Source of the DNA: Pseudomonas sp. AN-1
Lineage (GTDB): Bacteria > Pseudomonadota > Gammaproteobacteria > Pseudomonadales > Pseudomonadaceae
DNA: 64,000 bases
Reading direction: 5' to 3'
Assembly: GCF_034057115.1 (NCBI RefSeq)
Contig: NZ_CP139195.1
Span: 2,542,001-2,606,000, forward strand
Position 1 is the stretch's first letter. Each line of letters starts with the position of its first letter. Under the pieces are notes generated by a model. The model was not told where the DNA came from. It did not search any database and saw nothing but the letters and a program-made list of their open reading frames with translations. Below, piece by piece: positions 47,906 through 62,043 of this stretch. Position numbers and translations under genes: made by a program.

Positions 47906-48044
47906 GGAGCGGCACTGCGGCCGCCATGCCGGACGGCTGCTCACCGGCAAGCATGGGACGGCGGCAAGCGTTTGATCGCACTGGAATTTTTTCTGCATCG
48001 AGGGGTTGACAGGCGCCCCGCCGGAGAGAATAATGCGCGCCGTT

Positions 48045-48121
48045 GGCTACGTAGCTCAGCTGGTTAGAGCACGGCATTCATAATGCTGGGGTCCGGGGTT
48101 CAAGTCCCTGCGTAGCCACCA
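48045..48121 (+). tRNA. tRNA-Met (elongator, anticodon CAT)
   Basis: 77 bases with encoded CCA: acceptor GGCTACG/CGTAGCC, anticodon loop TTCATAA, T-loop TTCAAGT. Paired first bases (G-C at position 1) indicate the elongator rather than initiator form. Its 3' end is the attachment site of the integrated element that follows; the gene remains intact. Confidence 0.95.
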
Positions 48122-48124
48122 AAT
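48097..48124 (+). other. Left attachment site (tRNA-Met 3' end)
   Basis: T-arm, acceptor and CCA of tRNA-Met plus AAAT. It shares GGTTCAA, CTGCGTA and CCACCAAAT with the right end, where one G is missing and three or four T-arm bases differ. Confidence 0.75.
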
Positions 48125-48167
48125 ACTAGTTTCAGGTTGTCTCATGATGTATCTGAAACGCCCCAAG

Positions 48168-48197
48168 AAGCCCGCCCCGTGCGGGCTTTCTTGTTTC
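48168..48197 (+). terminator. Terminator after tRNA-Met on the island side
   Basis: AAGCCCG-CCCCGTG-CGGGCTT followed by TCTTGTTTCT. It replaces the tRNA's own terminator, which appears to be displaced to 61931. An inverted repeat TTTCAG...CTGAAA (about 48130-48158) precedes it. Confidence 0.7.
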
Positions 48198-48236
48198 TGC
48201 TTGTCTCGTTTTGTCTCGCTATAGCACTGGGCGCGG

Positions 48237-48255
48237 TGTATGCCCCTGTGTATGC
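48237..48255. repeat. Left copy of a 19-bp terminal direct repeat
   Basis: TGTATGCCCCTGTGTATGC, matching 18 of 19 bases at 61829-61847 near the other end, same orientation. It contains TGTATGC twice. It is a likely arm-type binding site for the integrase and lies just before the integrase gene. Confidence 0.7.
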
Positions 48256-48287
48256 TTCGTGATTACTTGAACCCGAGGCGTACACGG

Positions 48288-49529
48288 ATGAAGCGAGCAG
48301 ACATCAAGCGCCGCCCGCTGGCGGATACCACCCTGGCCAGCCTCGAACCCGAGGCCAGCACCTACCGGGAGCTGGACGGCGCCGGCCTGTACTTCCGGGT
48401 AAAGCCCAACGGGCAAAAGTCCTGGGAACTCCGCTACAAGAAACCGGACGGCAAGTGGTCCTGGCTGGGGCTGGGCGGGTATCCCGAGGTTGGCGGCGCC
48501 CTCGCCCGCCAGAAGGCCGCAGAGCTGCGCGCCGATCAGGCTGCAGGCAAGAACCCCATGGCGAGCAGGCAGGCCCGCAAGGCCGCCGAGCTGGCTGCCA
48601 CCAACAGCACGTTCGAGGCCCTGGCGAGGGAGTGGCACAGCTCCCGCCTGGCCAGTTGGGACCCCGGCACGGCAAAGCGCATCCTCGGCGCACTGGAGCT
48701 GCACGTGTTCCCCACCTTCGGGAAGCGGGCCTTCGCCGAGATCACCACCATGGAATGGTTGGAACTGCTGCGCGGGATGGAGCGCAAAGGCATCCTCGAA
48801 CAACTGAGCAGGGTCCGAGCCTACTGCAAGGATGCCTACGACCTGGCCCGAGTGACCGGCCGCGCCAGCTACAACCCGCTGGAAGGGCTGCACAAGTTCA
48901 TCCAAGCCCCGACCGCCGACAACTACGCCCACGTCTCCCTCGATGAGCTGCCGGCCCTGCTGCGCGCCATCCGGGCCTATCCCCATGCCCATGATGTGCG
49001 CCTCGGGCTTCACCTGCTGTCCCTGCTGGCCGTCCGCCCGTCCGAGCTGCGCGAAGCCGAGTGGTCGGAATTCGACTTCGAGCGCCAGCTATGGACCATC
49101 CCCGAGCAGCGCAAGGGCCGCAAGGGTGGCCGCGAACACCTGGTGCCGCTCCCTCGCCAAGCCGTCGAGGCACTGGAGGAGCTGCGCACCATCACCGGAG
49201 CCTATCCCCTGCTGTTCCCTGGGCGCAGCGACCGCACCAAGCCCCGCAGCGACACCGTATTCCTGATGGCCTTGCGCCGCCTCGGCTACGAAGGCCGGCA
49301 GACCGGCCACGGCTTCCGCCACCTGGCCAGCACCATCCTCAACGAACACGGCTTCGACGCTGACCACATCGAGGCCCAGTTGAGTCACAAGGCCCCCGGC
49401 GTGCGCGGCATCTACAACAAGGCCAAGTACCTGGAGCAGCGCCGCACCATGGTGCAGTGGTACGCCGACCACCTGGACAAACTCGCCGCCGGCAACGTGG
49501 TGCAAGGCCAGTTCGGCAGGGTGGTTTGA
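48288..49529 (+). CDS. int: Tyrosine integrase, P4 type
   Basis: 413 residues. N-terminal DUF4102 arm-binding domain (DTTLASLEPEASTYRELDGAGLYFRVKPNGQKSWELRYKKPDGKWSWLGLGGYPEV), SAM-like core-binding domain in the middle and C-terminal catalytic domain. Catalytic residues: Arg in LAVRPSELREAEW (about residue 250), His-x-x-Arg in TGHGFRHLAS, His in LSHK and the Tyr in RGIYNKAKY. It catalyses integration into the tRNA-Met gene. ATG at 48288 chosen; an earlier in-frame start at 48240 would overlap the 19-bp repeat. Confidence 0.93.
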   Translation: MKRADIKRRPLADTTLASLEPEASTYRELDGAGLYFRVKPNGQKSWELRYKKPDGKWSWLGLGGYPEVGGALARQKAAELRADQAAGKNPMASRQARKAAELAATNSTFEALAREWHSSRLASWDPGTAKRILGALELHVFPTFGKRAFAEITTMEWLELLRGMERKGILEQLSRVRAYCKDAYDLARVTGRASYNPLEGLHKFIQAPTADNYAHVSLDELPALLRAIRAYPHAHDVRLGLHLLSLLAVRPSELREAEWSEFDFERQLWTIPEQRKGRKGGREHLVPLPRQAVEALEELRTITGAYPLLFPGRSDRTKPRSDTVFLMALRRLGYEGRQTGHGFRHLASTILNEHGFDADHIEAQLSHKAPGVRGIYNKAKYLEQRRTMVQWYADHLDKLAAGNVVQGQFGRVV

Positions 49530-49540
49530 GCATGCGTTTC

Positions 49541-49738
49541 CCGTACCCCCTGCTTTTTGCGTGTTCCACGTGTTCCGGTGTTCCGCTATTTCGCAAGCCA
49601 TTGATTTATAAGGGTTTATCTGACGCGCCCAGCTGGAACACCGATTCTGTTCCGGCGTGTTCCAAGGTGTTCCACGTGTTCCGCTTTCGGCGCATCCACC
49701 GGGCCGGCGAAATGGCCGCAAACCCGCGCCAGCCGTGG
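49541..49738 (+). repeat. Left iteron locus (198 bp), candidate ori/crr
   Basis: GTGTTCC at 49561, 49570, 49578, 49657, 49667 and 49676, CTGTTCC at 49647 and an inverted GGAACAC at 49635, arranged as two groups of three around an AT-rich core (ATTGATTTATAAGGG). The locus recurs inverted, with the same layout and length, at 61028-61225. It starts 11 bases after the integrase stop. Iterons flanking an AT-rich unwinding stretch is the usual form of a replication origin. Confidence 0.7.
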
Positions 49739-50616
49739 CCTGCAGCCGATTCGCGGTGCTCAACGTCGGCGCCAGCGGCTGGCGCCCGGCTCAACGCACC
49801 AGCCCGCCGAAAGGCACCACAGCCCCGGCCCGGCCGCGCTCGATTCGGCACGACAACGGGCAGCCCTTCGCCTGCTGGCCCATGGTCGCCACGGCGATCC
49901 GCCGCACCTGCGCCAGCCACCGAACAGGCCCGAGCAACTGGGGCTCGCCGCCGGGCACAGCCCGCCAGCATCGAGCGCCGCGCCGCCCTGGTGCTGCTCG
50001 GGCTGGCGCTGGAACCGGCGACGATCCGCACCACCTGCGCCAACAGCTGGGGGACCGCTGGCCTCGATGCCCGCCCGCACCTGGTGCAGCCGCTCGGCTG
50101 TCCTGCCGCCGGGGCAGACGCTCACCCCGAGCAGTTGGCGCCCAACGCCGCCCAGCCTGCGCCGAGCGAGCACCACGCGGTTAACCTAGCAGCACCGGCC
50201 AGCGGTTAACCGCCCTGCGCCGCTGGCGATCACCAGCACGACACCTGCACCCGGCACGACCGCCAGAAAACCGGCACCCGAGGCGGCAAGGCCCCTGCCC
50301 TTGCCTGCTGGCCAGCCGTTCGCCGACAAACACCAACGAATAAAGCCGGTGCGAGCGCGCGGGCAAGGCGAGCGATAACGGGGCGCGGGGTGCCGTTCGT
50401 CGGATTTATTCAGGCGGTTGCGTTCGTATACGTTCGTATACGTTCGCATAGGTTGGGGTGCGTCGAAGGCTCCCCAAATGAACGCGATACGGTGTACAGC
50501 TCGCTCGAAAAACACTGTAAATAGATAGCCCTCACCAACAACCGCGAGGGCTTGCCAAAGTGCGACTTTTGTCGTTTTCTACTATGCGCCCTCGTCTCAA
50601 CCCGAGGGCCTACCTG
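49739..50616. other. Gene-free island region with repeats
   Basis: About 880 bases without a convincing gene. Open frames on both strands are arginine/proline/alanine-rich and match no family I know. It holds a palindrome GGCGCCAGC-G-GCTGGCGCC (49768-49786), three tandem decamers (50421-50450), and two GCCCTC/GAGGGC hairpins (50528-50551 and 50588-50609) just before the next gene. A degraded gene between 49860 and 50200 cannot be excluded. Confidence 0.5.
50421..50450. repeat. Three tandem decamers CGTTCGTATA
   Basis: CGTTCGTATA, CGTTCGTATA and CGTTCGCATA head to tail, each pair creating a GTATAC palindrome. About 165 bases before the first DNA-binding gene of the island, so probably an operator for one of the AlpA/excisionase-type proteins. 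The 10-bp period places sites on one face of the helix. Confidence 0.6.
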
Positions 50617-50889
50617 ATGAACCCCACCCCTGCCGCCCACGCGGCGCCCGCCTTCCGCCCGGCTATGCCGGCCATTCTCGACCCTGCCGATCTGCTGACG
50701 CCCGAACAGGCCGCCCAACTGCTCGGGCTGTCTGACCGCACCTTGGCCACCTGGCGCAGCACCGGCCGCCATGGCCTCCCGTACATTCGCGTAGGGGGCC
50801 GCATCCGCTACAGCAAGGCCGCGTTGACTGCCTGGTTTCAGTCGCGCCAGCGCACCAGCACCGCCAGCCCGGCACAGGGGGCGGCCTGA
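50617..50889 (+). CDS. Excisionase-like HTH_17 DNA-binding protein
   Basis: 90 residues. LLTPEQAAQLLGLSDRTLATWRSTGRHGLPYIRVGGRIRYSKAALTAWFQSR (about 23-75) is the MerR-like winged helix of excisionase/HTH_17 proteins. It probably controls excision and/or early transcription. Start ATG 50617, after a conserved-looking leader hairpin; the longer frame from 50560 runs through that hairpin. The stop overlaps the next ATG as TGATG. Confidence 0.75.
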   Translation: MNPTPAAHAAPAFRPAMPAILDPADLLTPEQAAQLLGLSDRTLATWRSTGRHGLPYIRVGGRIRYSKAALTAWFQSRQRTSTASPAQGAA

Positions 50890-51251
50890 TGCACCAGACC
50901 AAGACCACCCCCACCAAAGCCCCCAGCGCGTCCCCTGCGGGCCTTCCTGCCGACCCGGCACCGATGGCCGCCAACGTCCACCCGCTGCGCGCTGCTGGCG
51001 CCAGCAAGGTCGCTGCCGGGGCGCTCCCGTTCGATCCGGCCACCACGCTTATCCGCATGCCCGAGCTGCTCGCCCTGACTGGCCTTGGTGGCCGGGCGAC
51101 TGTGTATCGCGTGCTCAAGGATGACCCGACATTCCCCCGGCCGGTGCCACTGAGCGCCAGCACCGCCCGAAGCGCCCCGGTGGCCTGGGTTCTGGGGGAG
51201 GTTCAAGAATGGATTCGGACGCGCATCGCCGCCCGTGGGAGTGCTGCATGA
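50889..51251 (+). CDS. AlpA-family phage-type transcriptional regulator
   Basis: 120 residues. After a proline/alanine-rich N-terminal tail, residues 52-115 (TLIRMPELLALTGLGGRATVYRVLKDDPTFPRPVPLSASTARSAPVAWVLGEVQEWIRTRIA) form the AlpA domain known from P4-like and other prophages, where it activates integrase or early genes. It is the second adjacent small DNA-binding protein. Stop overlaps the KilA-N gene start as ATGA. Confidence 0.75.
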   Translation: MHQTKTTPTKAPSASPAGLPADPAPMAANVHPLRAAGASKVAAGALPFDPATTLIRMPELLALTGLGGRATVYRVLKDDPTFPRPVPLSASTARSAPVAWVLGEVQEWIRTRIAARGSAA

Positions 51252-51961
51252 CAGCCAAGGCAATCATCCCCCGCGACTACCAAGGCCACCCGGTGCGCTT
51301 CAACGCCGATGGCTGGCTGCATGCAACCGAGATTGCAGAACGCTTCGGCAAGCGCCTGGACCACTGGCTGGAAAACGCCGAGACGCTGACCTATATCCGC
51401 GCCCTCGATGAAGTGCTGACTGGGCAGCAGACTGGGATTCTAGATACCCGGAAATCCGGGTATGTAAAAACCAGCCGCGCCCGTGCAGACCGTGGCGGCG
51501 GCACCTGGCTGCACCCGAAGCTGGCGGTCATGTTCGCCCGCTGGCTCGATGCGAAGTTCGCCGTCTGGTGCGACATGCAAATCGACACCCTGCTACGCGG
51601 CGACGGCAGCCACTGGGCCACGGCCCGGCACGAGGCCACCCTCGGGCACCGCGCCGTCTGCGATGCCGTGGCGCTCAACTGCGAGGCGCGCGGCAAGACC
51701 GCCCAGCGGCACCACTTCATCAACGAAAACCGCCTCATCAACGAGGTAGCTACCGGCGCCTTCGCCGGCCGCAGCCGCGACCAGCTGAACGCCGCCGAGC
51801 TGGAAATCGTCACCCTGGTCGAACTGCGCGCCGCCTCCCTGCTCGCTGCAGGCATGACCTACGCCGAGCGCAAGGCCAGCCTGCAGGACTACGCGAAGCG
51901 GCTGCAGGCCGGGCGCCTGACGCCACGGGCACGCATCGCCAACCATGGGAGCGCCGCATGA
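51248..51961 (+). CDS. KilA-N domain protein
   Basis: 237 residues. The N-terminal KilA-N DNA-binding domain (VRFNADGWLHATEIAERFGKRLDHWLENAETLTYIRALDEV … GGGTWLHPKLAVMFARWLDAKFAVWCDMQIDTLLRG, about 15-120) is common in phages and nucleocytoplasmic viruses. The C-terminal half (LGHRAVCDAVALNCEARGKTAQRHHFINENRLINEVATGAFAGRSRDQL) resembles the C-terminal part of phage antirepressor-like proteins. Probably regulates phage or element genes; overlaps both neighbours by 4 bases. Confidence 0.8.
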   Translation: MTAKAIIPRDYQGHPVRFNADGWLHATEIAERFGKRLDHWLENAETLTYIRALDEVLTGQQTGILDTRKSGYVKTSRARADRGGGTWLHPKLAVMFARWLDAKFAVWCDMQIDTLLRGDGSHWATARHEATLGHRAVCDAVALNCEARGKTAQRHHFINENRLINEVATGAFAGRSRDQLNAAELEIVTLVELRAASLLAAGMTYAERKASLQDYAKRLQAGRLTPRARIANHGSAA

Positions 51962-52626
51962 GCAGGAAGACCTATCAGCCCGTCACGCTGATCGACACCT
52001 ACAGCCTGGGATTTCGCTTCCCCTGGCCGGGCTCGCAAGGCCCGCTGCTGCGTAACGGCACCATCGTTGCCGTGTGCTGGGATGGCGACGAAGCGCAATT
52101 CGTCAATGCCGCCGGCCTGGCGGTGCCCTGCAGGCCGGGCGACCTGCTGCGCCGCCAACTGACCAGCGCCAGCCACCGGGAGTTCGGGGCGATCATCGGC
52201 GACGGTCAATTCGCCATGAAACCGCATGTGCTCAAGGCCAAGGAGGGCGCCGGCACGCTGTGCAAGTGGGTGCTGTACCGCTTCGGCCTGTGCGACTGCT
52301 GGTTCTATGATGATGCCGCCGCCTGGGCCGCCCATGAGCAGGCCGAAACCGCCGACCTGACCCCGGCGTACTTTCTGGAAATGGCCGAGCTTGAGCGTCG
52401 GCTGCAGAGGCGCCAACGGCTGGCCAGCGAGATTGCCGACAGCCCGCAGGCCCTGCCCGACCTGCCCACGCCTGCGGAACTGGAGGAGCGCCGCCAGAAG
52501 GCTATCGCCGAGCGCCTGGCCGACCTGCGGGAACATCGCCGCCAAGCCCTGGAGCAAGACCGCCAGCTTGGCGCCTGGCTGCGTGGCGAGCTGCCCGCGC
52601 CGCCCCTGCTGCGGAGTGTCGCGTGA
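51958..52626 (+). CDS. Hypothetical protein of the island
   Basis: 222 residues, unrecognised. The N-terminal half is compact with several Trp and Cys (FRFPWPGSQGPLLRNGTIVAVCWDGDE…CKWVLYRFGLCDCWFYDDAAAWAAHEQAE). The C-terminal half is a highly charged, probably coiled-coil helix (LERRLQRRQRLASEIADS…ERLADLREHRRQALEQDRQL). No signal peptide. Part of the overlapping operon 50617-52976. A structural role or a partner of the KilA-N protein is possible but unsupported. Confidence 0.65.
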   Translation: MSRKTYQPVTLIDTYSLGFRFPWPGSQGPLLRNGTIVAVCWDGDEAQFVNAAGLAVPCRPGDLLRRQLTSASHREFGAIIGDGQFAMKPHVLKAKEGAGTLCKWVLYRFGLCDCWFYDDAAAWAAHEQAETADLTPAYFLEMAELERRLQRRQRLASEIADSPQALPDLPTPAELEERRQKAIAERLADLREHRRQALEQDRQLGAWLRGELPAPPLLRSVA

Positions 52627-52976
52627 TGCTGCCGGTATTCCTGTCCCACGCCTGCCTCGACCTGCCGCACGGCAACGCACCCGGCCAGCTGCTGGCGCTG
52701 ACACCCGGTGAAGCCAAGGCACGCGCCCAGCTGCGCGTCCTACGTGACCGCGCGCTGGCCGATGGCGCACAGGTGTTGATTCTGCTGTGGCCCGGCGCGG
52801 CCTGGACGTTGCTCGCCGTTGAGCCGCCCGCCGATGTGGCCGTGGGCGACGCCCTGGAGCTGGTCCCTAACCTGCTGGCCAACCCCGAGGCCCTGGAGCA
52901 GATGCACCAGCGGGCAGCCGCTGGCGATCATCTGGTATGGCTGGCCCTGCAACGGCCTGCCGCCACCCTGCATTGA
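52626..52976 (+). CDS. Hypothetical protein of the island
   Basis: 116 residues, unrecognised, alpha/beta-looking (VLRDRALADGAQVLILLWPGAAWTLLAVEPPADVAVGDALELVPNLL). Last gene of the first island operon; its ATG overlaps the preceding TGA (TGATG) and a hairpin follows at once. Confidence 0.6.
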   Translation: MLPVFLSHACLDLPHGNAPGQLLALTPGEAKARAQLRVLRDRALADGAQVLILLWPGAAWTLLAVEPPADVAVGDALELVPNLLANPEALEQMHQRAAAGDHLVWLALQRPAATLH

Positions 52977-52983
52977 AACGAAA

Positions 52984-53010
52984 ACGCCCCCGGCTGCAAC
53001 CTGGGGGCGT
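52984..53010 (+). terminator. Hairpin ending the first island operon
   Basis: ACGCCCCC...GGGGGCGT, an 8-bp stem 7 bases past the stop, without a T-run. It separates the operon from the antisense-RNA control region. Confidence 0.55.
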
Positions 53011-53162
53011 GGAGGTACTTCTGCTGTGCAAACGCAACTTACCCCGTGCCCGGTGCTCACGCAAGCATCGATGGCGCCGCGCCGGCTTGCGCCGGCCATT
53101 CGTCCGCGCTATCGTTCGCCCGTCACGGTCAATCCCGTGGCCGGGTTTGACGGCCCGATCAA

Positions 53163-53209
53163 GCAAAAGGCGCACAAGCGCCCCAAGACCATTGCCGGCG
53201 CTATTTTTT
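53163..53209 (+). promoter_or_regulatory. Attenuator upstream of the C4-type RNA
   Basis: Two mutually exclusive hairpins. GGCGC-ACAA-GCGCC (53169-53182) uses the bases needed for AGCGCC...GGCGCT (53177-53202), and the second is followed by T6 (53204-53209), making it a terminator. The left arm lies within GCAAAAGGCGC (53163-53173), whose first eight bases are complementary to the C4-type RNA loop. Binding of the RNA here would favour the terminator. This matches the known seqA/CI-RNA logic of P4. Confidence 0.65.
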
Positions 53210-53229
53210 CGCCTGCAATGTCGCTCTAT

Positions 53230-53304
53230 GGCGGCTGTGCGTGGGGCACCTTCGGGTGCGCCGGGTTCCTTTTGCCCCGGTCCGTCAACCCGCGTACAGC
53301 TGCC
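53230..53304 (+). ncRNA. C4/CI-type antisense RNA of satellite-phage immunity
   Basis: A 16-bp uninterrupted outer stem (53230-53245 with 53289-53304, three G-U pairs) encloses a GCACC-TTCG-GGTGC hairpin (246-259) and a CCGGG...CCCGG hairpin (261-280). The loop GTTCCTTTTGC of the second hairpin is complementary over 11 bases (one G-U) to GCAAAAGGAGC at 53344-53354, the ribosome binding site of the next gene. It is also complementary over 8 bases to 53163-53170. Fold and target logic match the P1/P7 C4 and P4 CI antisense RNAs. The exact ends depend on processing and are not visible. Confidence 0.8.
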
Positions 53305-53362
53305 ACCCCAATTCGTTTGACGGCGAACTGTGGCAGCTCCTCAGCAAAAGGAGCACCACCCC

Positions 53363-53680
53363 ATGAAGCACGACCCCGCCCGCAATCCGTCCGCACTCTG
53401 CGCACGCGCCAGCGCCCACCGCGCCATGGCCGTCGCCGCCCTGCACTCCGACTCTTCCCTCTCCAACCGGCTGCGCCGCTACAACCACCACATGGGCATC
53501 GCCCGCGCCCTGGAAGGCGAGGCCGCGCAGCAGCAGACTACCAGCACCCGCGACCCGCGCGCCGCCCTGGCCTGGCTCAAGGCCGGCAAGGCGCTGCGTA
53601 TCGACTCGCTCAACCTGCGCGACCACCTGCGCCACGTGCGCGCCCTGGCCGCCCTGGAAGCCCGTGGGGGTGTGCAATGA
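53363..53680 (+). CDS. Island protein under C4-type RNA control
   Basis: 105 residues, basic and helical (SALCARASAHRAMAVAALHSDSSLSNRLRRYNHHMGIARALEGEAAQQQ…DPRAALAWLKAGKALRIDSLNLRDHLRHVRALAALEARGG). Not recognised. Its Shine-Dalgarno sequence (AAGGAG at 53348-53353) is the downstream target of the antisense RNA, the place held in P1 and P4 by early, growth-affecting genes. First gene of the long overlapping operon leading to the replication protein. Confidence 0.65.
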   Translation: MKHDPARNPSALCARASAHRAMAVAALHSDSSLSNRLRRYNHHMGIARALEGEAAQQQTTSTRDPRAALAWLKAGKALRIDSLNLRDHLRHVRALAALEARGGVQ

Positions 53681-53907
53681 GTCGCCCGGCCCTGACCCCT
53701 GCCCAGATCATCGAAGCCGCCCGCACGCGGCTGGCGAAGGCCAAGACTGCCGAGAGCATCCGTTTCGAGGAGTGCACCGCCGTCGGCATGCTCGGCGCCC
53801 TGGAAGACCTGCGCCTGATCGACATGGACACCTGGCGCACCCTGCGCAACGAGTTCGACGCCCTGGCCGACAGCCGCCGCGCGCTGCTGGAAGGGGGTGC
53901 GCAATGA
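53677..53907 (+). CDS. Small hypothetical protein
   Basis: 76 residues, mainly helical (TPAQIIEAARTRLAKAKTAESIRFEECTAVGMLGALEDLRLIDMDTWRTLRNEFDALADSRRALLEGG). Overlaps both neighbours by 4 bases (ATGA). No known domain. Confidence 0.6.
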   Translation: MSRPALTPAQIIEAARTRLAKAKTAESIRFEECTAVGMLGALEDLRLIDMDTWRTLRNEFDALADSRRALLEGGAQ

Positions 53908-54170
53908 ACCTCCCAGCCATTACCACCGCTCGTGTTCTGGAGGGCGCCGCCCGAGAGCATGCCGATAGCCTGGTGTGCGTCGGGCTGGGCTTGGAGGCCC
54001 TTGCTGAGCTGCTGATGGAGGGCGGCGAGGACCGGATGACCACCGATCAGGTCAACGGGCTGCATCACGCCATCATCGCCCTGGGCCGCCTGGCAAAAGC
54101 CGCTGGTCACGACTTGGCCAGCATCACGGAAAGGAGTGCCTTCGAGCGCAACGGGGAGTGCCACGCATGA
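53904..54170 (+). CDS. Small hypothetical protein
   Basis: 88 residues, helical and acidic (VLEGAAREHADSLVCVGLGLEALAELLMEGGEDRMTTDQVNGLHHAIIALGRLAKAAGHDLASI). Reads like a small phage regulatory or accessory protein; no motif recognised. Overlaps both neighbours by 4 bases. Confidence 0.6.
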   Translation: MNLPAITTARVLEGAAREHADSLVCVGLGLEALAELLMEGGEDRMTTDQVNGLHHAIIALGRLAKAAGHDLASITERSAFERNGECHA

Positions 54171-54505
54171 AACAGCCCGCCCCTTACCTGCTGGCCCAAC
54201 TGGGCGCCGAGCTGCCGGAGCTGTGCGCCGGCCTGCAGCGCATCGTGACCGTGACGAAGGAGCGCGACCCGGCCACCGGCCTGCGCCGCCCCGTCGATCC
54301 CTACACCCTGGACTATCTGGCGTCCGACCTGCTGCGCATCGCCTGCGCCAGCCGTGACCGGGTAGCCGCTGCCGCCGGGCGCCTGGAGCAGCACGGCGAG
54401 GCGCTGGCGCAACTGCGCGCCGCCCTGCCGCATGCCGAGCGCATCGGCGCCAGCTGTATCGACGCCGTACCCGTCCACCTGCTGCGCGACCTGCTGGGGG
54501 AATAA
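54167..54505 (+). CDS. Small hypothetical protein
   Basis: 112 residues, helical (LLAQLGAELPELCAGLQRIVTVTKERDPATGLRRPVDPYTLDYLASDLLRIACASRDRVAAAAGRLEQHGEALAQLRAAL). Unrecognised. Ends 3 bases before the next ATG. Confidence 0.6.
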   Translation: MKQPAPYLLAQLGAELPELCAGLQRIVTVTKERDPATGLRRPVDPYTLDYLASDLLRIACASRDRVAAAAGRLEQHGEALAQLRAALPHAERIGASCIDAVPVHLLRDLLGE

Positions 54506-54508
54506 CCC

Positions 54509-54754
54509 ATGACCGAACAACAACGCTGCCAGAAGGCGGCGACGGCCCCGGCTTGCCCGAAGAAAGCCACCGTCCTGCATCTGATCCCGTACCACCTGGA
54601 GCTGATCCGCGCCGCCAACGAAGCCCATCGCCGCGTGCTGAACACGCGCGCCATCGGCCCGGACTGGCAGGCCGCGCACAGCGCATGGCTCAACGCTGCC
54701 GAATCGCTGGCGGTCGCCATCATCCACCAAGCAGAGCGGGAGGCCCGCCAATGA
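54509..54754 (+). CDS. Small hypothetical protein
   Basis: 81 residues with two Cys near the N-terminus and a helical remainder (IPYHLELIRAANEAHRRVLNTRAIGPDWQAAHSAWLNAAESLAVAIIHQAERE). Unrecognised. Its start (MTEQQR) resembles the start of the replication protein (MTEQRK), with the same upstream context. The stop overlaps the next start. Confidence 0.6.
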   Translation: MTEQQRCQKAATAPACPKKATVLHLIPYHLELIRAANEAHRRVLNTRAIGPDWQAAHSAWLNAAESLAVAIIHQAEREARQ

Positions 54755-55170
54755 CTGCCCTTCATTCCTGCCGGCCCACCGCCACCGTCCACCACCTGCG
54801 CCAGCCCGGCGCCTTCGAGCGGCCCAAGGAGGAGCACGCCATGCCACAGGCCTACTACATCGCCGAGCTGCTGGGGGTGCTCCCCGAACCGCTGCCGCTT
54901 GAGCTGGCGCAACTGCTGGCCGTCACCCTGGCCGTGGGCGTGGATGCCATCGGCACCTCTCAGATGCTCGACAGCAGCGGCGCCAGCTGCTGGGGCGTGT
55001 TCCGCGTGCACATGATCGTGCGCAACAGGGCACGGGCGGAAGTCGCAGCCCTTGGCCTGGCTCATGAGCTGGGCGACGCCACCCGCGCCTGCATCCTCGG
55101 TGACTGGCAAGAGCCTATCGGTGGGCAGGCGTCGGCCGCTGGCGCCCGCTGTGCTGGGGGTGTCGCATGA
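54751..55170 (+). CDS. Small hypothetical protein
   Basis: 139 residues, unrecognised. An internal ATG at 54841 (MPQAYYIAELLGVLPEPLPLELAQLLAVTLAVGVDAIGTSQMLDSSGASCWGVFRVHMIVRNRARAEV) begins the better-folding part and has its own AGGAG sequence (54826-54830). A 110-residue product is therefore an alternative. Overlaps neighbours by 4 bases. Confidence 0.55.
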   Translation: MTALHSCRPTATVHHLRQPGAFERPKEEHAMPQAYYIAELLGVLPEPLPLELAQLLAVTLAVGVDAIGTSQMLDSSGASCWGVFRVHMIVRNRARAEVAALGLAHELGDATRACILGDWQEPIGGQASAAGARCAGGVA

Positions 55171-55412
55171 CCATCCACATTCCGCTCGAACGCATTCCAA
55201 GCAGCACCAGCGACTCGGACGCCTACGACACTGCAACCCTGCACCTGGAGAAAGCGGAAACGCTGGTCGCCCTGCTGGTGGCCCTCGATGGGACCGGGGC
55301 GCAGCAGAACCTTTCCGCCAAGGCACTGGGCTGCACCTTCGTCGCCCTCTCCGAAGAACTGGCCAGCGTGCGCGCTGCCCTGCGGCAGTACCACCAGCGA
55401 GGTGACGCATGA
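55167..55412 (+). CDS. Small hypothetical protein
   Basis: 81 residues, helical (TATLHLEKAETLVALLVALDGTGAQQNLSAKALGCTFVALSEELASVRAALRQYHQ). The pattern of a helix pair spanning a Cys suggests a small dimeric phage-type protein; not recognised. Overlaps the replication gene by 4 bases. Confidence 0.6.
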   Translation: MTIHIPLERIPSSTSDSDAYDTATLHLEKAETLVALLVALDGTGAQQNLSAKALGCTFVALSEELASVRAALRQYHQRGDA

Positions 55413-58372
55413 CCGAACAACGCAAATCAGAGTTCCCCAGCTTCGCCGAGGTGAAGGCCGCCGCCCTGCGCTCGATTGACCGCGTGCTGGCGCACTGGCT
55501 GCCCGGCGGCAAGCTGGTGGACGCCAACAAGGAGTACACCGCGCCCAACCCCACGCGGGCCGACAAGCACACCGGCTCGCTCAAGGTGAACATGCGCCGG
55601 GGCACCTGGTCCGACTTCGCCACCGGGGACAAGGGCGGCGACCTGATAGACCTGGTGCAGTACCTCAACCGCTGCAGCCACGTGGACGCCTGCAACAAGC
55701 TGGCCGACTTCCTGGGCGTGACCGCTGGCGCCAGCCCGGCGCCGGCCACCAGCAGCGCCAGCAAGCCCGCCGCGCCCGAGTGGGCACCTGTGCTGCCGAT
55801 CCCCGCCGAGGCCATGGCCAAGGTCCACAAGACCCACCGCCAGCACGGCAAGCCGTCCAAGGTGTGGGTCTACAAGGATGCGCAGGGACAGCCGCTGATG
55901 GTGCTCTACCGCTTCGACAAGGCCCCGGACGCTGACGGCAAGCGGGAAAAGGTCTTTGCCCCGCTGACCTGGTGCCGCAACGCCAGCGGCGCCGGGCAAT
56001 GGCGCTGGGCGAGCCTGCCCGAGCCGCGCCCGCTGCTGCGCCTCGATGAACTGGCGCAGCGCCTCGAGGCGCCCGTGGTGCTCTGCGAGGGCGAGAAGTC
56101 CGCCGACGCTGCCGCCCAGCTGCTGCCCGACCACGTGGCCACCTGCTGGCCCAATGGCGCGCAGTCCTGGCAGAAGGCCGACTTCGCCCCGCTGGCCGGG
56201 CGCGACGTGCTGCTGTGGCCGGATAACGACCGCAACGGCCTGGCCTGCATGCGCTCGATTGCCGATCACCTGCGCCAGCTGGGCGCCGCGTCCGTGCGTA
56301 CCGTGGCGCTCGACGTGTTCACCCGGCGCCCGGTAGTGGTGGACGCCGCCGCCACCTTCGAGGCCGGCGGCGAGTGGGCAGACGGCGACGATGCCGCCGA
56401 CGCGCTGGCCAAGGGCTGGACACCCGAGCACCTGGCCGCGCTGGCGCAGGCCGGCGAGCTGTACGCCGCCCCAGCGGCGCCGGCACAGGCCGCCGAAGCG
56501 GCACCCGAGGCTGGCGCCAGCGATGCCCCGACGAAGGCCGCCAGCAAGCCCAGCAGCCGCGCCAAGCGCCAGCCTGCACGCACCCATGCGGCGAGCGCCA
56601 ACAGCGACAGCAGCGAGCAGCTGTCGGGCTTCCGGGTGACGGATGCCGGGGTGGTCTACTACAGCGACGAAGGCGAACGCCCTGTGTGTTCGCGGCTCGA
56701 CATTCTGGCGCGCACCCGCGACGACAAGGGCCACAACTGGGGGCTGCTGGTGGAGTTCGACGACCCGGACGGGGCAAAGAAGCGCCTCAACATCCCCTCG
56801 CAAGCCATGGCCGGCGAGTTCGGCAAGGAAGTGGTCGGGCCGCTGGTGAGCATGGGCCTGCGCCTGGCCATCGGCCGCAACGCCCGCAACTGCCGCAACG
56901 ATCTGCAGAGCTACCTGCAGTCCTACGACAGCCACGAGCGTGCGCGCCTGGTCAACCGCCTGGGCTGGCACGATGACGCCTATCTGCTGCCCGGCGAGCA
57001 ACTGGGCAACAGCGCCGAACACCTGCACTTCTACGAAGGCGGCGCCGCCCTGCCGCCTATCGAGCAGGCCGGCACCCTGGAGGAGTGGCAACAGGGCGTC
57101 GCCCGCTACTGCGTCGGCAACAACCGCCTGGCCTTCGTGGTGAGCACGGCCTTTGCCGGCCCGCTGCTGCACCTGCTGGGCGCCGAGTCGGGCGGCTTCC
57201 ACCTCTACGGCGACAGCTCGGGCGGCAAGACCACCCACCTGAAGGCCGCCGCCTCGGTCTACGGCGGGCCGCGCATGCTGCGCACCTGGCGCAGCACGGA
57301 CAACGCCCTGGAAGGCACCGCCGCCGCCCACTCGGACGGGCTGCTGGTGCTCGATGAAATCCACCAGTGCGACGCCCGCGTGATTGGCGACACCGTGTAC
57401 ATGCTCGGCAACGGCACCGGCAAGACCCGAGCGAACGACCGGGGAGCCGTCGCCAAACAGGCCTACAGCTGGCGCCTGCTGTTCCTGTCCACCGGGGAAA
57501 AGACCCTCGCCCAGCACATGGCCGAAGGCGGCAAGGAGCTGAAAGCCGGGATGGAGGTGCGCATGGTCGGCATCCCAGCCGATGCCGGCAAAGGCCTGGG
57601 GCTGTTCGAGGAGCTGCACGGCTTCGCCGAGGCCGGCGAGCTGGCCGATACCCTGACCAGCAACGCCGGCAAGCACCACGGAACGGCCCTGGTCGCATAC
57701 CTGCGGGCCATGCTCGAATCCAAGCCACTGCCCAAGGTATCCGAGGAGCTGGCGCGGGTGACGGATCACTTCGCCGGCAAGCTGCTGCCTGCTGACGCTG
57801 CCGGGCAGGTTCGCCGGGTGGCTGCGCGCTTCGCCCTGGTCGCCACGGCCGGCGAGCTGGCCACCCGCCTGGGCGTCACCGGCTGGCCCGAACTCACGGC
57901 CTACAACGCCGCGCGCACCTGCTTCAGCGCCTGGCTCGACGCCCGAGGCGGCGCCGGCAACCTCGAAGAGCAGGCCATCGTCACCCACCTGCGGACGATC
58001 ATTGAACGCTTCGGGGAAGGCCGCTTCACCCGCTGGGATAACGTGGCAGTGCGTACCGACGAGCACGGGCCGCGCACTACCGACCGCCTGGGCTTCCGTC
58101 GCACCGTGGAGCACGGCGTGGGCGATGAGCTGTACACCACGACGGATTACTACGTGCTGTCCGCCGTGTGGGCCTCGGAAGTCTGGAAGGGCTACAACGT
58201 GGCCAACGTCAACAAGGTGCTGCTGGCGCGGGGCATCCTCACGCCCGGCACGGACGGCAAGGCCGCCCGCTCCGAACGCCTGCCGGGGATGGGCAAGACG
58301 CGCTGTTACCTGGTGAGTGCTGCCGCGCTGAACGCCGACAGCCCCGCCGAACAACTGGCCGAAGCGGCCTGA
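55409..58372 (+). CDS. TOPRIM primase/helicase-like replication protein (DUF927)
   Basis: 987 residues. The N-terminal region (WSDFATGDKGGDLIDLVQYLNR) resembles primase-associated segments. TOPRIM fold: VVLCEGEKSADAAAQLLP near residue 224 supplies the Glu, and VLLWPDNDRNGLACM near 270 supplies the Asp pair. A low-complexity Ala/Pro linker (about 345-400) leads to the DUF927 helicase-like domain with Walker A GDSSGGKTTHLKAA near residue 600 and Walker B LLVLDEIHQC near 644. It probably initiates or primes replication of the excised island, in the role of P4 alpha protein, acting at the iteron loci. Largest gene of the island. Confidence 0.85.
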   Translation: MTEQRKSEFPSFAEVKAAALRSIDRVLAHWLPGGKLVDANKEYTAPNPTRADKHTGSLKVNMRRGTWSDFATGDKGGDLIDLVQYLNRCSHVDACNKLADFLGVTAGASPAPATSSASKPAAPEWAPVLPIPAEAMAKVHKTHRQHGKPSKVWVYKDAQGQPLMVLYRFDKAPDADGKREKVFAPLTWCRNASGAGQWRWASLPEPRPLLRLDELAQRLEAPVVLCEGEKSADAAAQLLPDHVATCWPNGAQSWQKADFAPLAGRDVLLWPDNDRNGLACMRSIADHLRQLGAASVRTVALDVFTRRPVVVDAAATFEAGGEWADGDDAADALAKGWTPEHLAALAQAGELYAAPAAPAQAAEAAPEAGASDAPTKAASKPSSRAKRQPARTHAASANSDSSEQLSGFRVTDAGVVYYSDEGERPVCSRLDILARTRDDKGHNWGLLVEFDDPDGAKKRLNIPSQAMAGEFGKEVVGPLVSMGLRLAIGRNARNCRNDLQSYLQSYDSHERARLVNRLGWHDDAYLLPGEQLGNSAEHLHFYEGGAALPPIEQAGTLEEWQQGVARYCVGNNRLAFVVSTAFAGPLLHLLGAESGGFHLYGDSSGGKTTHLKAAASVYGGPRMLRTWRSTDNALEGTAAAHSDGLLVLDEIHQCDARVIGDTVYMLGNGTGKTRANDRGAVAKQAYSWRLLFLSTGEKTLAQHMAEGGKELKAGMEVRMVGIPADAGKGLGLFEELHGFAEAGELADTLTSNAGKHHGTALVAYLRAMLESKPLPKVSEELARVTDHFAGKLLPADAAGQVRRVAARFALVATAGELATRLGVTGWPELTAYNAARTCFSAWLDARGGAGNLEEQAIVTHLRTIIERFGEGRFTRWDNVAVRTDEHGPRTTDRLGFRRTVEHGVGDELYTTTDYYVLSAVWASEVWKGYNVANVNKVLLARGILTPGTDGKAARSERLPGMGKTRCYLVSAAALNADSPAEQLAEAA

Positions 58373-58446
58373 CACCCGACCGGCCACCGGCCTGGCCGGT
58401 GGCTGCTGCGCCAACTGCTGGCGCCGACACTGCGAGGAACCCCACC

Positions 58447-59115
58447 ATGACACCGGACATGCTCAGAGCCTTGAGCGCCATCGAGCAGAAGCCCACCACC
58501 ACAGCACGCACGCGGCTGCTGATAACCCGCCGCGTCTGCCGCCACCTCTGCACCCTGCTCCAGAGCATCCGCGCCGAACGCCGCGCCCTGCGCCGGCAAG
58601 CGGCCTGCCTGCGTGGCGGGCTGCCATTCACCAAGACCGCTATCGAGCGACTGGAGCAACTGGCCGCCGAACACCGTGCCGACCACCTAGCCACCGGCCG
58701 CCATGTGCTGACGATGTACGGCGTGTTGTTGCTCCGCGACCCGGCCGGCGACGCTGGCGCCCTGAGCTTCGACGAGCTGTGCGATCTGCTCAACGTCAAC
58801 ACCGTGGAGCGCGAACAGGCCCGCCGGGACGGGGCCACCAGCTTCCGCGACGTGGCATTCATCCATGCCCTGGAAGACAGCGCCAGCCGCCGGGGGGAAG
58901 ACTGCAAGGGCGGCCCGCTGTTCGAGGCGTACCGGGCCGCCATGATGGAGTTCATCCGTACCGCACCAGCCGAACAGCTGCCCGATCCGTTCGCACCTGG
59001 TGGCCCGCTGTACAGTTGCCCGGTGCAGGTGCTCAACTCTGACGGCTCCGTGACCGTCAAGCGCCCAGACCTGACGGTACACGACAGCAACGGCGCCAGA
59101 GTGGTGAAGCGGTAG
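58447..59115 (+). CDS. Hypothetical protein after the replication gene
   Basis: 222 residues. The N-terminal half is a basic coiled-coil-like helix (RLLITRRVCRHLCTLLQSIRAERRALRRQAACLRGGLPFTKTAIERLEQLAAEHRADHL). The C-terminal half is acidic/mixed (FDELCDLLNVNTVEREQARRDGATSFRDVAFIHALEDSASRRGEDCKGGPLFEAYRAAMMEFI). Not recognised. It lies 74 bases after the replication gene and just before the 11-bp array, so a plasmid-maintenance or copy-control role is possible but unproven. Confidence 0.6.
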   Translation: MTPDMLRALSAIEQKPTTTARTRLLITRRVCRHLCTLLQSIRAERRALRRQAACLRGGLPFTKTAIERLEQLAAEHRADHLATGRHVLTMYGVLLLRDPAGDAGALSFDELCDLLNVNTVEREQARRDGATSFRDVAFIHALEDSASRRGEDCKGGPLFEAYRAAMMEFIRTAPAEQLPDPFAPGGPLYSCPVQVLNSDGSVTVKRPDLTVHDSNGARVVKR

Positions 59116-59174
59116 CCCTCCCAGCCTACCGCTGGCCCTGGCCGGCGGCGCCCCTTCACCTTCCCTCATCCACT

Positions 59175-59284
59175 GGCAACAACGCGGCAACAGCCCGGCA
59201 ACGGGAAAGCGACAGGCGGGCAACAGTCGGGCAACGGGAGAAGGACAGGCAGGCAACAGAAGGGCAACAACCTGGCAACAGTCC
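59175..59284. repeat. Ten tandem 11-bp units (GGCAACAGNCN)
   Basis: GGCAAC occurs at 59175, 59186, 59197, 59219, 59230, 59252, 59263 and 59274. Every start is a multiple of 11 from the first, with degenerate units filling the two gaps (59208, 59241). The 11-bp period is not a multiple of three, so it is not coding. Regular phased sites next to replication and recombination genes suggest an iteron or partition-type binding array. Confidence 0.75.
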
Positions 59285-59357
59285 TGCCGCGCTGCGCTTG
59301 CCTCCCAGCCATCGCCAGCGCAACAAGTTGCCCTGTCGCCGGCCGGGTCTGTTGACT

Positions 59358-59443
59358 AGTGCAGGATAGGTTTCGTGGCGCCACTTGTGGCACAACGCCG
59401 AGTGCAGGATAGGTCTGGTGGTGCCATTTGTAATACAACGCCG
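59358..59443. repeat. Two tandem 43-bp direct repeats
   Basis: AGTGCAGGATAGGT starts at 59358 and again at 59401. The remaining bases of each unit (…GTGGCGCCACTTGTGG… / …GTGGTGCCATTTGTAA…, both ending CACAACGCCG or TACAACGCCG) are about three-quarters identical. The first copy contains a GTGGCGCCAC palindrome. Non-coding, between the 11-bp array and the GGTATCAA sites. Confidence 0.65.
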
Positions 59444-59539
59444 CGCCTTCCAGCCCCAACCGTTCACCTGCCGGCCATCCCGTGCCCGCCGATCCCACGC
59501 CCACCCTGACGACCTGGCACCGCCTCTGCCGCTGGCGCC

Positions 59540-59657
59540 GGTATCAACAAACGACCGTTTTTCGATACCGAAAAAATCAGGCCCGAAAAGGTATCAACAA
59601 ATATGGGTTTACAGGCTGTTGATACCAATGCACAATGATCCCACCTTAGTTGATACC
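59540..59657. promoter_or_regulatory. Five GGTATCAA half-sites (res/operator) before the recombinase
   Basis: GGTATCAACAAA at 59540 and 59590, and inverted TCGATACC or TTGATACC ending at 59579, 59626 and 59657. They form two inverted pairs spanning 40 and 37 bp plus one extra half-site, ending 14 bases before the recombinase ATG. Resolvase/invertase genes are typically preceded by such multi-subsite res regions, which also autoregulate the gene. Confidence 0.7.
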
Positions 59658-59671
59658 AGCAGGCGGCAACC

Positions 59672-60229
59672 ATGAATCGAGTCTTCGCATACGGGCGCGT
59701 TTCCACCCTGGAGCAGTCCACGGACAACCAGCTGGTTGCCCTGCAACAGAAGGGCTTCGATATTCAGCCGCACCGCTGGTTCGCCGAGCAGGTGTCTGGC
59801 GGGGTTCCGGCTCTGCAGCGCCCGGAGTTCTCCCGCATGGCCGACCGGATGGAAGCCGGCGACGTGCTCGTGGTGCTCAAGCTCGACCGCCTGGGCCGCG
59901 ACGTGCAAGACGTGCTGGCCACCATCGAGGAACTGGCCGCGCGCAAGATCCACGTCCGCAGCCTCGACCTCGATGGCGTGGACCTGACCAGCGCCGCCGG
60001 CAAGCTGCAGCTCACAGTGCTGGCTGCCGTGGCCGCCTTCGAGCGTGACCGGATCAGGGAGCGCACCAAAGAAGGCTTGGCCCGCACCTCGAAGAAAGGC
60101 GGACGCCCCGAGGCGCTGGAAACCACCAAGGCGGTGCAGGCCTGCAGGGCCAAGGGCCTGACCCAGAGCCAAGCCGCCGCCGAGCTGGGCATGAGCCTGC
60201 CCACCATCAAGCGCCACTGGAACAAGTAG
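59672..60229 (+). CDS. Serine recombinase (resolvase/invertase family)
   Basis: 185 residues. The catalytic Ser is in AYGRVSTLEQSTDNQ (Ser11), the conserved Arg region in VVLKLDRLGRDVQDVL, and the helix E region in LQLTVLAAVAAFERDRIRERTKEGLA. C-terminal HTH (GLTQSQAAAELGMSLPTIKRHWNK). Small, resolvase-size, so a multimer resolvase or invertase for the island rather than a large integrase. Adjacent GGTATCAA sites are its likely substrate. Confidence 0.9.
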   Translation: MNRVFAYGRVSTLEQSTDNQLVALQQKGFDIQPHRWFAEQVSGGVPALQRPEFSRMADRMEAGDVLVVLKLDRLGRDVQDVLATIEELAARKIHVRSLDLDGVDLTSAAGKLQLTVLAAVAAFERDRIRERTKEGLARTSKKGGRPEALETTKAVQACRAKGLTQSQAAAELGMSLPTIKRHWNK

Positions 60230-60361
60230 GCGACCAGCGCCAGCCCCGCCGCCGGGCTGGCGCCTGACCAGACCAGCAGCCGCCCGCCGTCACACTCCCC
60301 GCCGCCCCTCGGCTCAACACAGCAGCGCCCCGCCTTTCGCCTGCTGGCCTGGGGTTGTCGT

Positions 60362-60948
60362 GGGCGTTCCTGCTGCTGGCGCCAGCCCGACCAGCTGGCG
60401 CGCGCCCCGAGGCTAGCCCGCGCACCGGTTGCCCGGCCTGGCGATCTGCTGAGCCTGGCCAGCAGGCGGACCAGCTGGCACCCGGCCTGCTCGATGCCGG
60501 CCAGCACCTGGAGCGCCAGCCCCGAGCAACGGCACCAGCGGGCCAGCGCCTGCCCTTGCCTGATGGCCTGGGGCTGCCTGGGCGTTCCTGCTGCTGGCGC
60601 CAGCCCGACCAGCTGGCGCGCGCCCCGAGGCCAGCCCGCGCACCGGTTGCCCGGCCTGGGCGCCCTGCGCCTGCTCCCCGTTGCCGCCCTGGCGATCTGC
60701 TGAGCCTGGCCAGCAGGCGGACCAGCTGGCGCCCGGCCTGCTCGATGCCGGCCAGCACCTGGAGCGCCAGCCCCGAGCAACGGCACCAGCGGGCCAGCGC
60801 CTGCCCTTGCCTGATGGCCTGGGGCTGCCTGGGCGCTCCTGCTGCTGGCGCCAGCCCGACCAGCTGGCGCGCGCCCCGAGGCCAGGCCGCGCACCGGTTG
60901 CCCGGCCTGGGCGCCCTGCGCCTGGCCAGCAGGCGGAACAGCTGGCGC
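60362..60948. repeat. Long tandem repeat, about 2.4 copies of 218/251 bp
   Basis: Units start at 60362, 60580 and 60831 with GGGCG(T/C)TCCTGCTGCTGG. The first is 218 bp, the second 251 bp with a 33-bp insertion (about 60659-60691), the third partial. Identity between units is above 95% apart from that insertion. The sequence is dense in CCAGCTGGCGC-type palindromes. Open frames cross it on both strands but shift between units. Non-coding or decayed, between the recombinase and the right iteron locus. Confidence 0.8.
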
Positions 60949-61027
60949 CGCTACTCGATACCTGCCGCCAGTGCTGGGCATCATGCCTGCCGCCTGCGAG
61001 CACGCGCACAGCCAAACACGCTGTATC

Positions 61028-61225
61028 CCACGGCTGGCGCGGGTTTGCGGCCTGTTCGCCGATCCGTTGAGCCCCCCGAAAGCGGAACACCTGGAACACC
61101 TTGGAACACGCAGGAACAGAATCGGTGTTCCGGCTGGCGCCTGCCGTGAAACCATTATAAATCAATGACTTACGTAAAGGCGGAACACCGGAACACGTGG
61201 AACATGCAAAAACCAGCCGGTACGG
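61028..61225 (-). repeat. Right iteron locus (198 bp), inverted copy
   Basis: Same layout as 49541-49738 on the opposite strand: GGAACAC at 61084, 61093, 61103, 61182 and 61190, GGAACAG at 61113, GGAACAT at 61199 and one inverted GTGTTCC at 61125, around the same ATTGATTTATAA core. The copies have diverged outside the iterons while iteron positions are kept, a sign of functional constraint. Confidence 0.7.
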
Positions 61226-61828
61226 ATAAGGACACCCCAGCACCCCGGCAGGGGGCAGGCCGACAGCGAACTGATTCCATTCCGTGCGATGCCGCGCCCA
61301 AGCCATGAGCAGCGGCCTGTGATTGGCTGCCAGCAGGTAGGGGGGTGTAAAACCTCGGGCCGTTGGAGGTCCCGAACGACGTAGGGAGCCATGCGCCCCC
61401 ACGCGACGAAATTTCATATAGGGGGGGGTCGAAAGTGCACCGGGGACCCTGGGAACTTGGCACCTGCACGGGTAATTCGAGCCCCGCCCGCGCGGCAGCG
61501 GCTGAACCTGGAAGTTAGTGAACTGGTGAAGTCGGTTAACTGGTGAAATCCAGACGCCTGTCATGAACCCAGCTCATGCACCAAGGCGGGTCCTCCCGGC
61601 TACCCCCACCCCTACACGGGTAATTCGAGCCTCGTTTTTCCTCTAGCTGTGGTGGCGCCTGGCATGTCCGTCTTTCCATCCGGCCAGCAGCCCGCCCAGT
61701 TGCCCACCTGCCGGCCCCCTGGTGCGGGTCCTTCCCGGCTTGGCCAGCACCTACGGCGACGTGGACCGCAAAATTTTTGCAGACGCGCCAGCACATAGGG
61801 GGTTCCGCTTCCGGCCTGCCCTCGGCTA
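61226..61828. other. Gene-free right end of the island
   Basis: About 600 bases with no convincing gene. Contains a G8 run in an AT-rich context (AAATTTCATATAGGGG…, about 61409-61428), the 20-bp direct repeat CACGGGTAATTCGAGCCNCG at 61467-61486 and 61615-61634, and AACTGGTGAA twice (61521, 61538). The mixture resembles DNA-packaging (cos) or other cis-acting phage regions, but this is only a resemblance. Confidence 0.45.
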
Positions 61829-61847
61829 TGTATGCCTCTGTGTATGC
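61829..61847. repeat. Right copy of the 19-bp terminal direct repeat
   Basis: TGTATGCCTCTGTGTATGC, one mismatch to 48237-48255. It lies 52 bases inside the right attachment site; probable integrase arm site. Confidence 0.7.
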
Positions 61848-61899
61848 CTGCGACACATGACCAAGCCGAACCCCTTGCAACAGCTGGCCAACAGGGGCA

Positions 61900-61926
61900 G
61901 GTTCAAACGACTGCGTACCACCAAAT
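61900..61926 (+). other. Right attachment site
   Basis: GGTTCAAACGACTGCGTACC followed by ACCAAAT aligns with the tRNA-Met T-arm to CCA-AAAT, with one deleted G and a few substitutions. It is directly followed by a tRNA-type terminator, consistent with the host side of the original insertion site. Confidence 0.7.
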
Positions 61927-61930
61927 TCCG

Positions 61931-61962
61931 AAAAGGGCCTGCAGCGATGCAGGCCCTTTTTT
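61931..61962 (+). terminator. Probable original terminator of tRNA-Met
   Basis: AAAAGGGCCTGCA-GCGA-TGCAGGCCCTTTT, a 13-bp perfect stem with a GNRA-type loop and T6. With the island removed it would lie a few bases after the tRNA-Met CCA end. Confidence 0.85.
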
Positions 61963-62043
61963 CGTTTGTCTGCGCCATGCCCTGCCGGCTACGCTGGGCG
62001 GACCCCGAAGGACCCGGGGGTACCGTACAGGCCAGGAGGCCGC

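Follow-up and report, generated by a model that had tools for sequence, protein, structure and literature searches.

Antisense RNAs of phages and satellites

In phages P1 and P7, the antisense RNA C4 covers its targets, the first gene is untranslated and the operon is silent, as outlined in passages of a review (PMC12197685). In the relevant part of another paper (PMC4825925), P4 CI RNA is described as terminating transcription via seqA and seqC, the same is suggested for the Gifsy-1 RNA with one co-expression result that did not fit, and IsrK is described as activating orf45/anrP translation in trans in Gifsy-1. Both c4 and c4-a1b1 appear among the motifs listed in sections of a 2010 paper (PMC2864571).

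We analysed a stretch of 64,000 nucleotides from Pseudomonas sp. AN-1, and ‘the window’ refers to this whole stretch. One locus in it reads, with a probability of roughly 0.8, as a C4 antisense RNA carried by a satellite-like island of the P4 type, together with the silencing mechanism proposed below. Judged by its elements, the window carries the parts for both P1/P7-type and P4-type control.

Structure of the C4 RNA

53224–53310, + strand: C4 antisense RNA (RF01695), from a match of 88.7 bits (gathering score 45), its fold and covariation

The Rfam C4 covariance match spans model positions 1–87 of 87. A preliminary description of the locus had called the RNA C4/CI-type and had named a search with the Rfam C4 model, with a strong match expected, as a check. 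At 88.7 bits against a cut-off of 45, the search supports the call, and the same model matches P1 (68.8 bits) and P4 (74.9 bits).

In the predicted fold of 53221–53312, an outer stem of 17 pairs including G-U (53229–53245 with 53289–53305) encloses two hairpins, one at 53246–53259 with a UUCG loop and the other at 53260–53281 with a loop at 53266–53275. The stem and the two inner hairpins had been described before, the stem as 16 bp, which is now corrected. The fold energy is −51.9 kcal/mol versus a shuffle mean of −35.1 (z = −4.8), none of 200 shuffles being as stable. When 33 C4 sequences including those of P1, P4, phiAH14b and U10 were aligned, 18 of the 28 consensus pairs had at least one compensatory change.

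The window RNA is a standard phage-type C4, a further member of a well-known family. First, its long outer stem and two hairpins are maintained by compensatory changes. Second, its unpaired segments a′ and b′ are complementary to a2 and b2, and b2 overlaps the next gene's ribosome-binding site. Third, a1/b1 targets are found upstream (RF03163 at 54.2 versus 46.7 bits; pattern search). C4 occurs at or above the cut-off in 199 of the 298 genomes of the family, own genome included.

Targets on both flanks of C4

The pairing segments, targets and hairpins are as follows, with a1, b1, a2 and b2 named by order, following the annotated P1 record.

53109–53161, + strand: leader element with the targets, matching Rfam c4-a1b1 (RF03163) at 54.2 bits against a gathering score of 46.7
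53146–53153, + strand: a1, TTTGACGG, partner of a′ (pattern search; comparison with the annotated P1 record)
53163–53170, + strand: b1, GCAAAAGG, partner of the b′ loop (pattern search; changes together with the b′ loop among relatives)
53177–53209, + strand: predicted terminator-like hairpin, stem 53177–53182 with 53197–53202, T run 53204–53209
53266–53275, + strand: b′ loop of C4, the loop of the preliminary description (predicted fold)
53282–53288, + strand: a′, single-stranded segment CCGTCAA of C4, unpaired in the fold, with complements at a1 and a2
53316–53323, + strand: a2 target (pattern search)
53336–53354, + strand: predicted 6-bp hairpin GCTCCT-CAGCAAA-AGGAGC, in which the first gene's ribosome-binding site lies
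53344–53354, + strand: b2 target, which takes in the ribosome-binding site (GGAG at 53350–53353) (sequence reading; pattern search)

Between the loop (53265–53275) and 53344–53354, 10 Watson–Crick pairs and one G-U can form. An 11-base match had been claimed at this position. The b′/b2 pairing is one of four; a′ (53282–53288) and the upstream targets at 53146–53170 had been missed, as had the terminator-like hairpin (53177–53209) and the ribosome-binding-site hairpin (53336–53354).

Target pairs lie on both flanks of C4, at 53146–53170 and 53316–53351, and each is matched by both C4 segments. Across the 4,609,694 bases of the own genome, the double target TTTGACGG-N(5-35)-GCAAAAGG was found at two places only, one on each side of this C4, and a reversed-pattern control gave no occurrence.

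The ribosome-binding-site hairpin, with exact arms of at least 5, is found at 21 of the 32 C4 loci compared below, the window's own included, and at 9 of 44 loci of a C4-rich Pseudomonas genome (G277). With RNAcofold, the gain for C4 was 0.0 kcal/mol with a2/b2, 1.1 with the leader and 0.0 with a control stretch, a neutral result because loop–loop contacts are not representable in RNAcofold.

Loop and target variation in relatives

C4 loci numbering 32 were compared, from the own genome and relatives in the family. The C4 loops vary among most of them, and the flanking targets vary in step; at L006, for example, the loop reads ..CCTATATC.. and GATATAGG stands on both flanks. The earlier claim that the loop targets the ribosome-binding site of gene 53363 is supported by this co-variation across relatives.

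Own and swapped pairings were compared at the 29 loci that were parsed (L003, L019 and L024 left out). On average, own pairing is stronger than swapped pairing for all four combinations, with 0 of 2000 permutations each (kinship ignored). For b′ with the downstream target, the own value is −15.1 versus −8.5 swapped, and the own loop is best at 23 of the 29 loci; for a′ downstream the values are −9.7 and −6.1 (own best at 20). Upstream, own is best less often, at only 8 loci for b′ (−11.9 versus −7.9) and only 13 for a′ (−9.8 versus −6.8). Among the 29 loci, 27 different combinations of b′ and a′ occur. The complementarity of loops and targets is more than chance.

Two further C4s are present in the own genome. 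One (L002, C1:978257-978343) is located on a second island of like type, with a homologue of gene 53363 and a KilA-N protein; its b′ is the same as in the window C4 and its a′ is different. If the two islands are heteroimmune, b′ alone cannot set specificity. The other (L003, 53.5 bits) precedes an ORF with a P22_AR_N antirepressor domain.

The first gene and the replication operon

53363–53680, + strand: first gene of the putatively controlled operon, 105 aa, ATG at 53363
53677–59115, + strand: downstream chain of mostly overlapping ORFs, starting at 53677, 53901, 54158, 54509, 54751, 55167 and 55409, the last ORF ending at 59115
55409–58372, + strand: DUF927/primase-type protein, 987 aa (DUF927 match with E = 2e-76; a CHC2 zinc finger match stays below the cut-off)

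The 53363 protein has no match in Pfam, PHROG or NCBIfam, and no relative in viral_contigs by a peptide-pattern search. Against the homologue at L002, dN is 0.12 and dS is 0.27, a dN/dS of about 0.4; against a 52-aa stretch of phiAH14b it is 0.3. From these values the ORF looks like a real gene, and the substitutions are consistent with purifying selection. Because the chain of mostly overlapping ORFs leads to the DUF927/primase-type protein, a block at the first gene would plausibly silence the replication operon.

The carrier island

48045–48121: tRNA-Met, adjoining the integrase
48125–61927: island, approximate extent about 13.8 kb (BLAST of L188–L191 and L193 against the window)
48240–49529, + strand: tyrosine integrase with arm-binding domain, adjoining tRNA-Met
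50889–51251, + strand: AlpA-type regulator (domain search)
51209–51961, + strand: KilA-N protein, upstream of the C4 leader (domain search)

The gene order is tRNA-Met, integrase, HTH protein, AlpA-type regulator, KilA-N protein, C4 leader, ORF chain, DUF927 protein and resolvase. Seven other genomes of the genus were compared. In five of them (L188–L191 and L193), the end of tRNA-Met (48121–48124) runs straight into window position 61900, and this empty site places the island ends at about 48,125 and 61,927. The genome L187, of the same species, has the start of the island, and L192 differs. No exact repeat of at least 12 bases is shared between 48001–48300 and 49501–64000.

Judged by its genes, the carrier is a P4-type satellite-like island. 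It is integrated at a tRNA gene, its size falls in the range of about 10–17 kb (based on P4 with 11.6 kb and phiAH14b with 16.8 kb), and it has an arm-binding integrase, an AlpA-type regulator and a primase/helicase-type replication gene. Among the proteins scanned, which are part of the island ORFs, no convincing capsid, tail or terminase gene was found; a weak match to phrog_57 (terminase small subunit, E = 0.0017) came from the HTH protein at 50560, where it ranks below several HTH/excisionase families.

Several repeats are also located in the island. Near its two ends (49541–49746 and 61020–61225) lie copies of about 207 bases in inverted orientation, which are 84.5% alike. Near the right end, tandem direct repeats (60361–60949) contain two 241-base copies, 98% alike at a spacing of 251, as well as three 81-base copies. 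Stretches of TGTATGCC-CTGTGTATGC type, seen by eye at about 48239 (the integrase start) and about 61829 (near the right end), are perhaps integrase arm sites.

Proposed silencing and its alternatives

Computed here were the RNA fold, the four complementarities, the genome-unique target pairs and how they co-vary, the order of the genes, and the empty site in relatives. On the proposed mechanism, a single transcript would run through the leader, C4 and the operon, and C4 would be cut out of it. The b′ loop and a′ would then bind their targets b2 and a2 on the operon mRNA, covering the ribosome-binding site of gene 53363, and translation of this gene would stop. Because the following ORFs mostly overlap, the entire replication operon would be silenced. 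The silenced operon would keep the island quiescent, and the cell would be immune to any island sharing both segments. Pairing of a1/b1 with the same C4 segments could favour termination before C4, or a short leader RNA could titrate C4. By analogy with P1/P7 and P4, we infer that the window C4 is the immunity determinant of the island. A promoter scan of 52800–54000 gave no σ70-like promoter.

Alternatively, C4 could act mainly as in P4, by terminating transcription through the leader a1/b1 and the terminator-like hairpin, with Rho acting in the untranslated first gene, rather than by occluding the ribosome-binding site. The layout allows this, since the hairpin stands between a1/b1 and C4 as in isrK, and P4 itself has an isrK match (60.8 bits) besides the termination via seqA and seqC described for its CI RNA. 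The 5′ arm of the hairpin has an alternative pairing with 53169–53173, overlapping b1. When b1 was blocked in a short leader, the predicted terminator pairing rose from 0.62 to 1.00. On the other hand, when the leader was lengthened and the measure slightly altered, it was 0.00 in both states, so the folding support varies with leader length. Across 25 loci, the b1 block raised terminator pairing in 9 and lowered it in 1, versus a rise in 1 with a control block. A terminator switch triggered by C4 is therefore not robust, and we retain it as a rival only. The hairpin 53177–53209 is absent from the output of a simple terminator scan. Other points also speak against termination as the main mode: there is no T run at the hairpin in 6 of 31 parsed loci (L003 unparsed), and b2 lies on the ribosome-binding site as in P1. 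We regard this alternative as rather unlikely.

A less probable possibility, which we doubt considerably, is that the short terminated leader (53109–53209) would be the active regulator, freeing the ribosome-binding site in trans as IsrK does in Gifsy-1, while C4 would mainly keep the long mRNA inactive by its fold. The leader does resemble IsrK in layout, and here too the ribosome-binding site is sequestered by a predicted hairpin. However, the isrK match at 53122–53208, which takes in most of the terminator-like hairpin, scores 42.5 bits (E = 1.6e-7), below the gathering score of 50; by this score the leader is isrK-like in layout only, outside RF01394. Such a regulator would moreover supplement the pairing of C4 with its targets, not replace it.

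That the locus is a decayed remnant without function is scarcely credible: the empty site in relatives makes the island dispensable, but the fold, the four pairings and the long ORFs are all intact and the substitution pattern of gene 53363 fits purifying selection.

C4 and DUF6124 cassettes on Pseudomonas chromosomes

The window C4 led, through its relatives, to a wider set of loci. C4 seems, on the genomes scanned, to have become a repeated chromosomal gene switch in part of Pseudomonas. Seven genomes of genus g14, which we take to be Pseudomonas, were picked for their many matches and have 15–48 C4 matches each. The richest case is G277 (loci L061–L106) with 48, of which 47 are above the cut-off. 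A DUF6124 match follows within 700 bases downstream of 36 of the 48 C4s, two such ORFs having also been scanned directly. Conversely, 37 of 39 DUF6124 matches in G277 have a C4 on the same strand within 700 bases upstream, mostly 197–228 bases off; 39 of the 40 matches were used (one fragment left out), and two of them share one C4. Among the C4s listed, a C4 lies upstream of at least 10 of 18 DUF6124 matches in G219 (18 of 19 matches, one fragment out, and 18 of 20 C4s) and of at least 11 of 16 in G239 (17 of 20 C4s).

At named Pseudomonas loci (L107–L185), C4 ends about 50 bases before the DUF6124 gene in 77 of 79. The C4 model for these loci was built here, and the sample comes from the best 80 of 567 DUF6124 relatives, which biases it to close kin and makes the loci non-independent. 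The two exceptions are L163, with two upstream bases only, and L181, with 130 and no C4. Among the 68 of these loci that were parsed, 24 distinct b′ segments occur. C4 thus precedes most of the DUF6124 genes sampled, with many per genome in the richest case.

DUF6124 is found in 64 of the 298 family genomes and in 2 of 19 genera (g14 and g9). It was detected in 0 of 145 genomes drawn from the order, where the control genomes were negative too. Among 50,697 phage records, one has it (61–405 of a 22.7-kb record), and among 72,556 plasmids none. The rarity in phage records and plasmids suggests that the cassettes are mainly chromosomal. The median dN/dS of DUF6124 is 0.31 (78 pairs), and its structure model is weak (pLDDT 71.8, pTM 0.43).

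The swap test was repeated with the 44 C4s of G277 that were parsed among the 47 above the cut-off. The a′ and b′ segments pair with their own downstream targets at a mean of −22.9 kcal/mol versus −15.0 kcal/mol when swapped (0 of 5000 permutations). The own a′ and b′ together rank first in 22 of 44 loci and third or better in 33. This count, and that for b′ downstream (best in only 6 of 44), led us to reject the stricter statement that every G277 RNA fits its own target best. By this pairing-energy measure, the specificity of the switches is real but incomplete. Two G277 loci, 1928154 and 3385423, have identical pairing segments.

Other genes are also seen behind C4. In G277, C4 precedes a DUF3077 protein at L071 and L077 (E = 1.7e-28 and 3.1e-10) and a small protein without a Pfam match at L074. 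Genomes G003 and G020 (genus g4) and G012 (g12) have at least 14 C4 matches, yet DUF6124 occurs only in g14 and g9; from these matches, some gene other than DUF6124 may stand behind C4 in g4 and g12.

The products of P1 icd and P4 kil are toxic. By analogy with these genes behind C4/CI, DUF6124 may be growth-inhibiting. The chances are about even, in our estimate, that the dispersed a1b1-C4-a2b2 cassettes before small DUF6124 genes have pairing segments that diverged each towards its own targets and are dozens of largely private antisense switches per cell, and that they would be pairs of an RNA antitoxin and a protein should DUF6124 inhibit growth. If they act as switches, they would amount to a naturally occurring set of parallel antisense pairs, and would give a first handle on the uncharacterised DUF6124 gene family. 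Our literature search found no paper naming DUF6124, one for DUF3077, and none on Pseudomonas C4 cassettes as judged by titles and abstract openings.

Comparison with P1, P4, Gifsy-1 and phiAH14b

P1 has the same a1-b1-C4-a2-b2 order as the window, and b2 likewise stands directly ahead of a small gene, icd in P1, as annotated in NC_005856, and its record also scores for c4-a1b1 (51.0 bits beside the 68.8 for C4). P1 C4 controls icd-ant, ant being the antirepressor, whereas the window chain leads to a primase/helicase-type protein.

P4 shares the arm-binding integrase, the small regulator and a replication gene, alpha in P4, with its C4 (74.9 bits) and isrK (60.8 bits) matches on the alpha gene strand. 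The replication protein of the window is of the DUF927 type, unlike that of P4, and no counterpart of P4 kil/eta was identified in the window island.

In Gifsy-1, IsrK, STnc1160, orf45 and anrP (RF01394) follow each other as leader element, terminator, processed RNA and small ORF, according to the relevant part of PMC4825925, and the window layout is alike. The two differ in that the window match is below the isrK gathering score, and in their downstream genes.

A further likeness is to phiAH14b, a satellite of Pseudomonas sp. ANT_H14, whose C4 (89 bits) is placed in the same way. A passage of PMC4936722 reports that phiAH14b is encapsidated in helper phage particles; this concerns phiAH14b, not the window island. 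The leader, C4 and first-gene start match at 76.5% identity across 63% of a 651-base query, and the DUF927-type helicase is 30% identical to the window protein over 57% of the query. The first gene of phiAH14b reads 52 aa versus 105 aa in the window, and it has an annotated Rha-like gene at roughly the place taken by KilA-N in the window. The a′ and b′ segments of phiAH14b are identical to those of the window, and we therefore predict that the window island and phiAH14b belong to one immunity group. The window locus presents the full C4 anatomy on a satellite-like island, linked to a reported satellite, with an immunity group predicted from two short segments.
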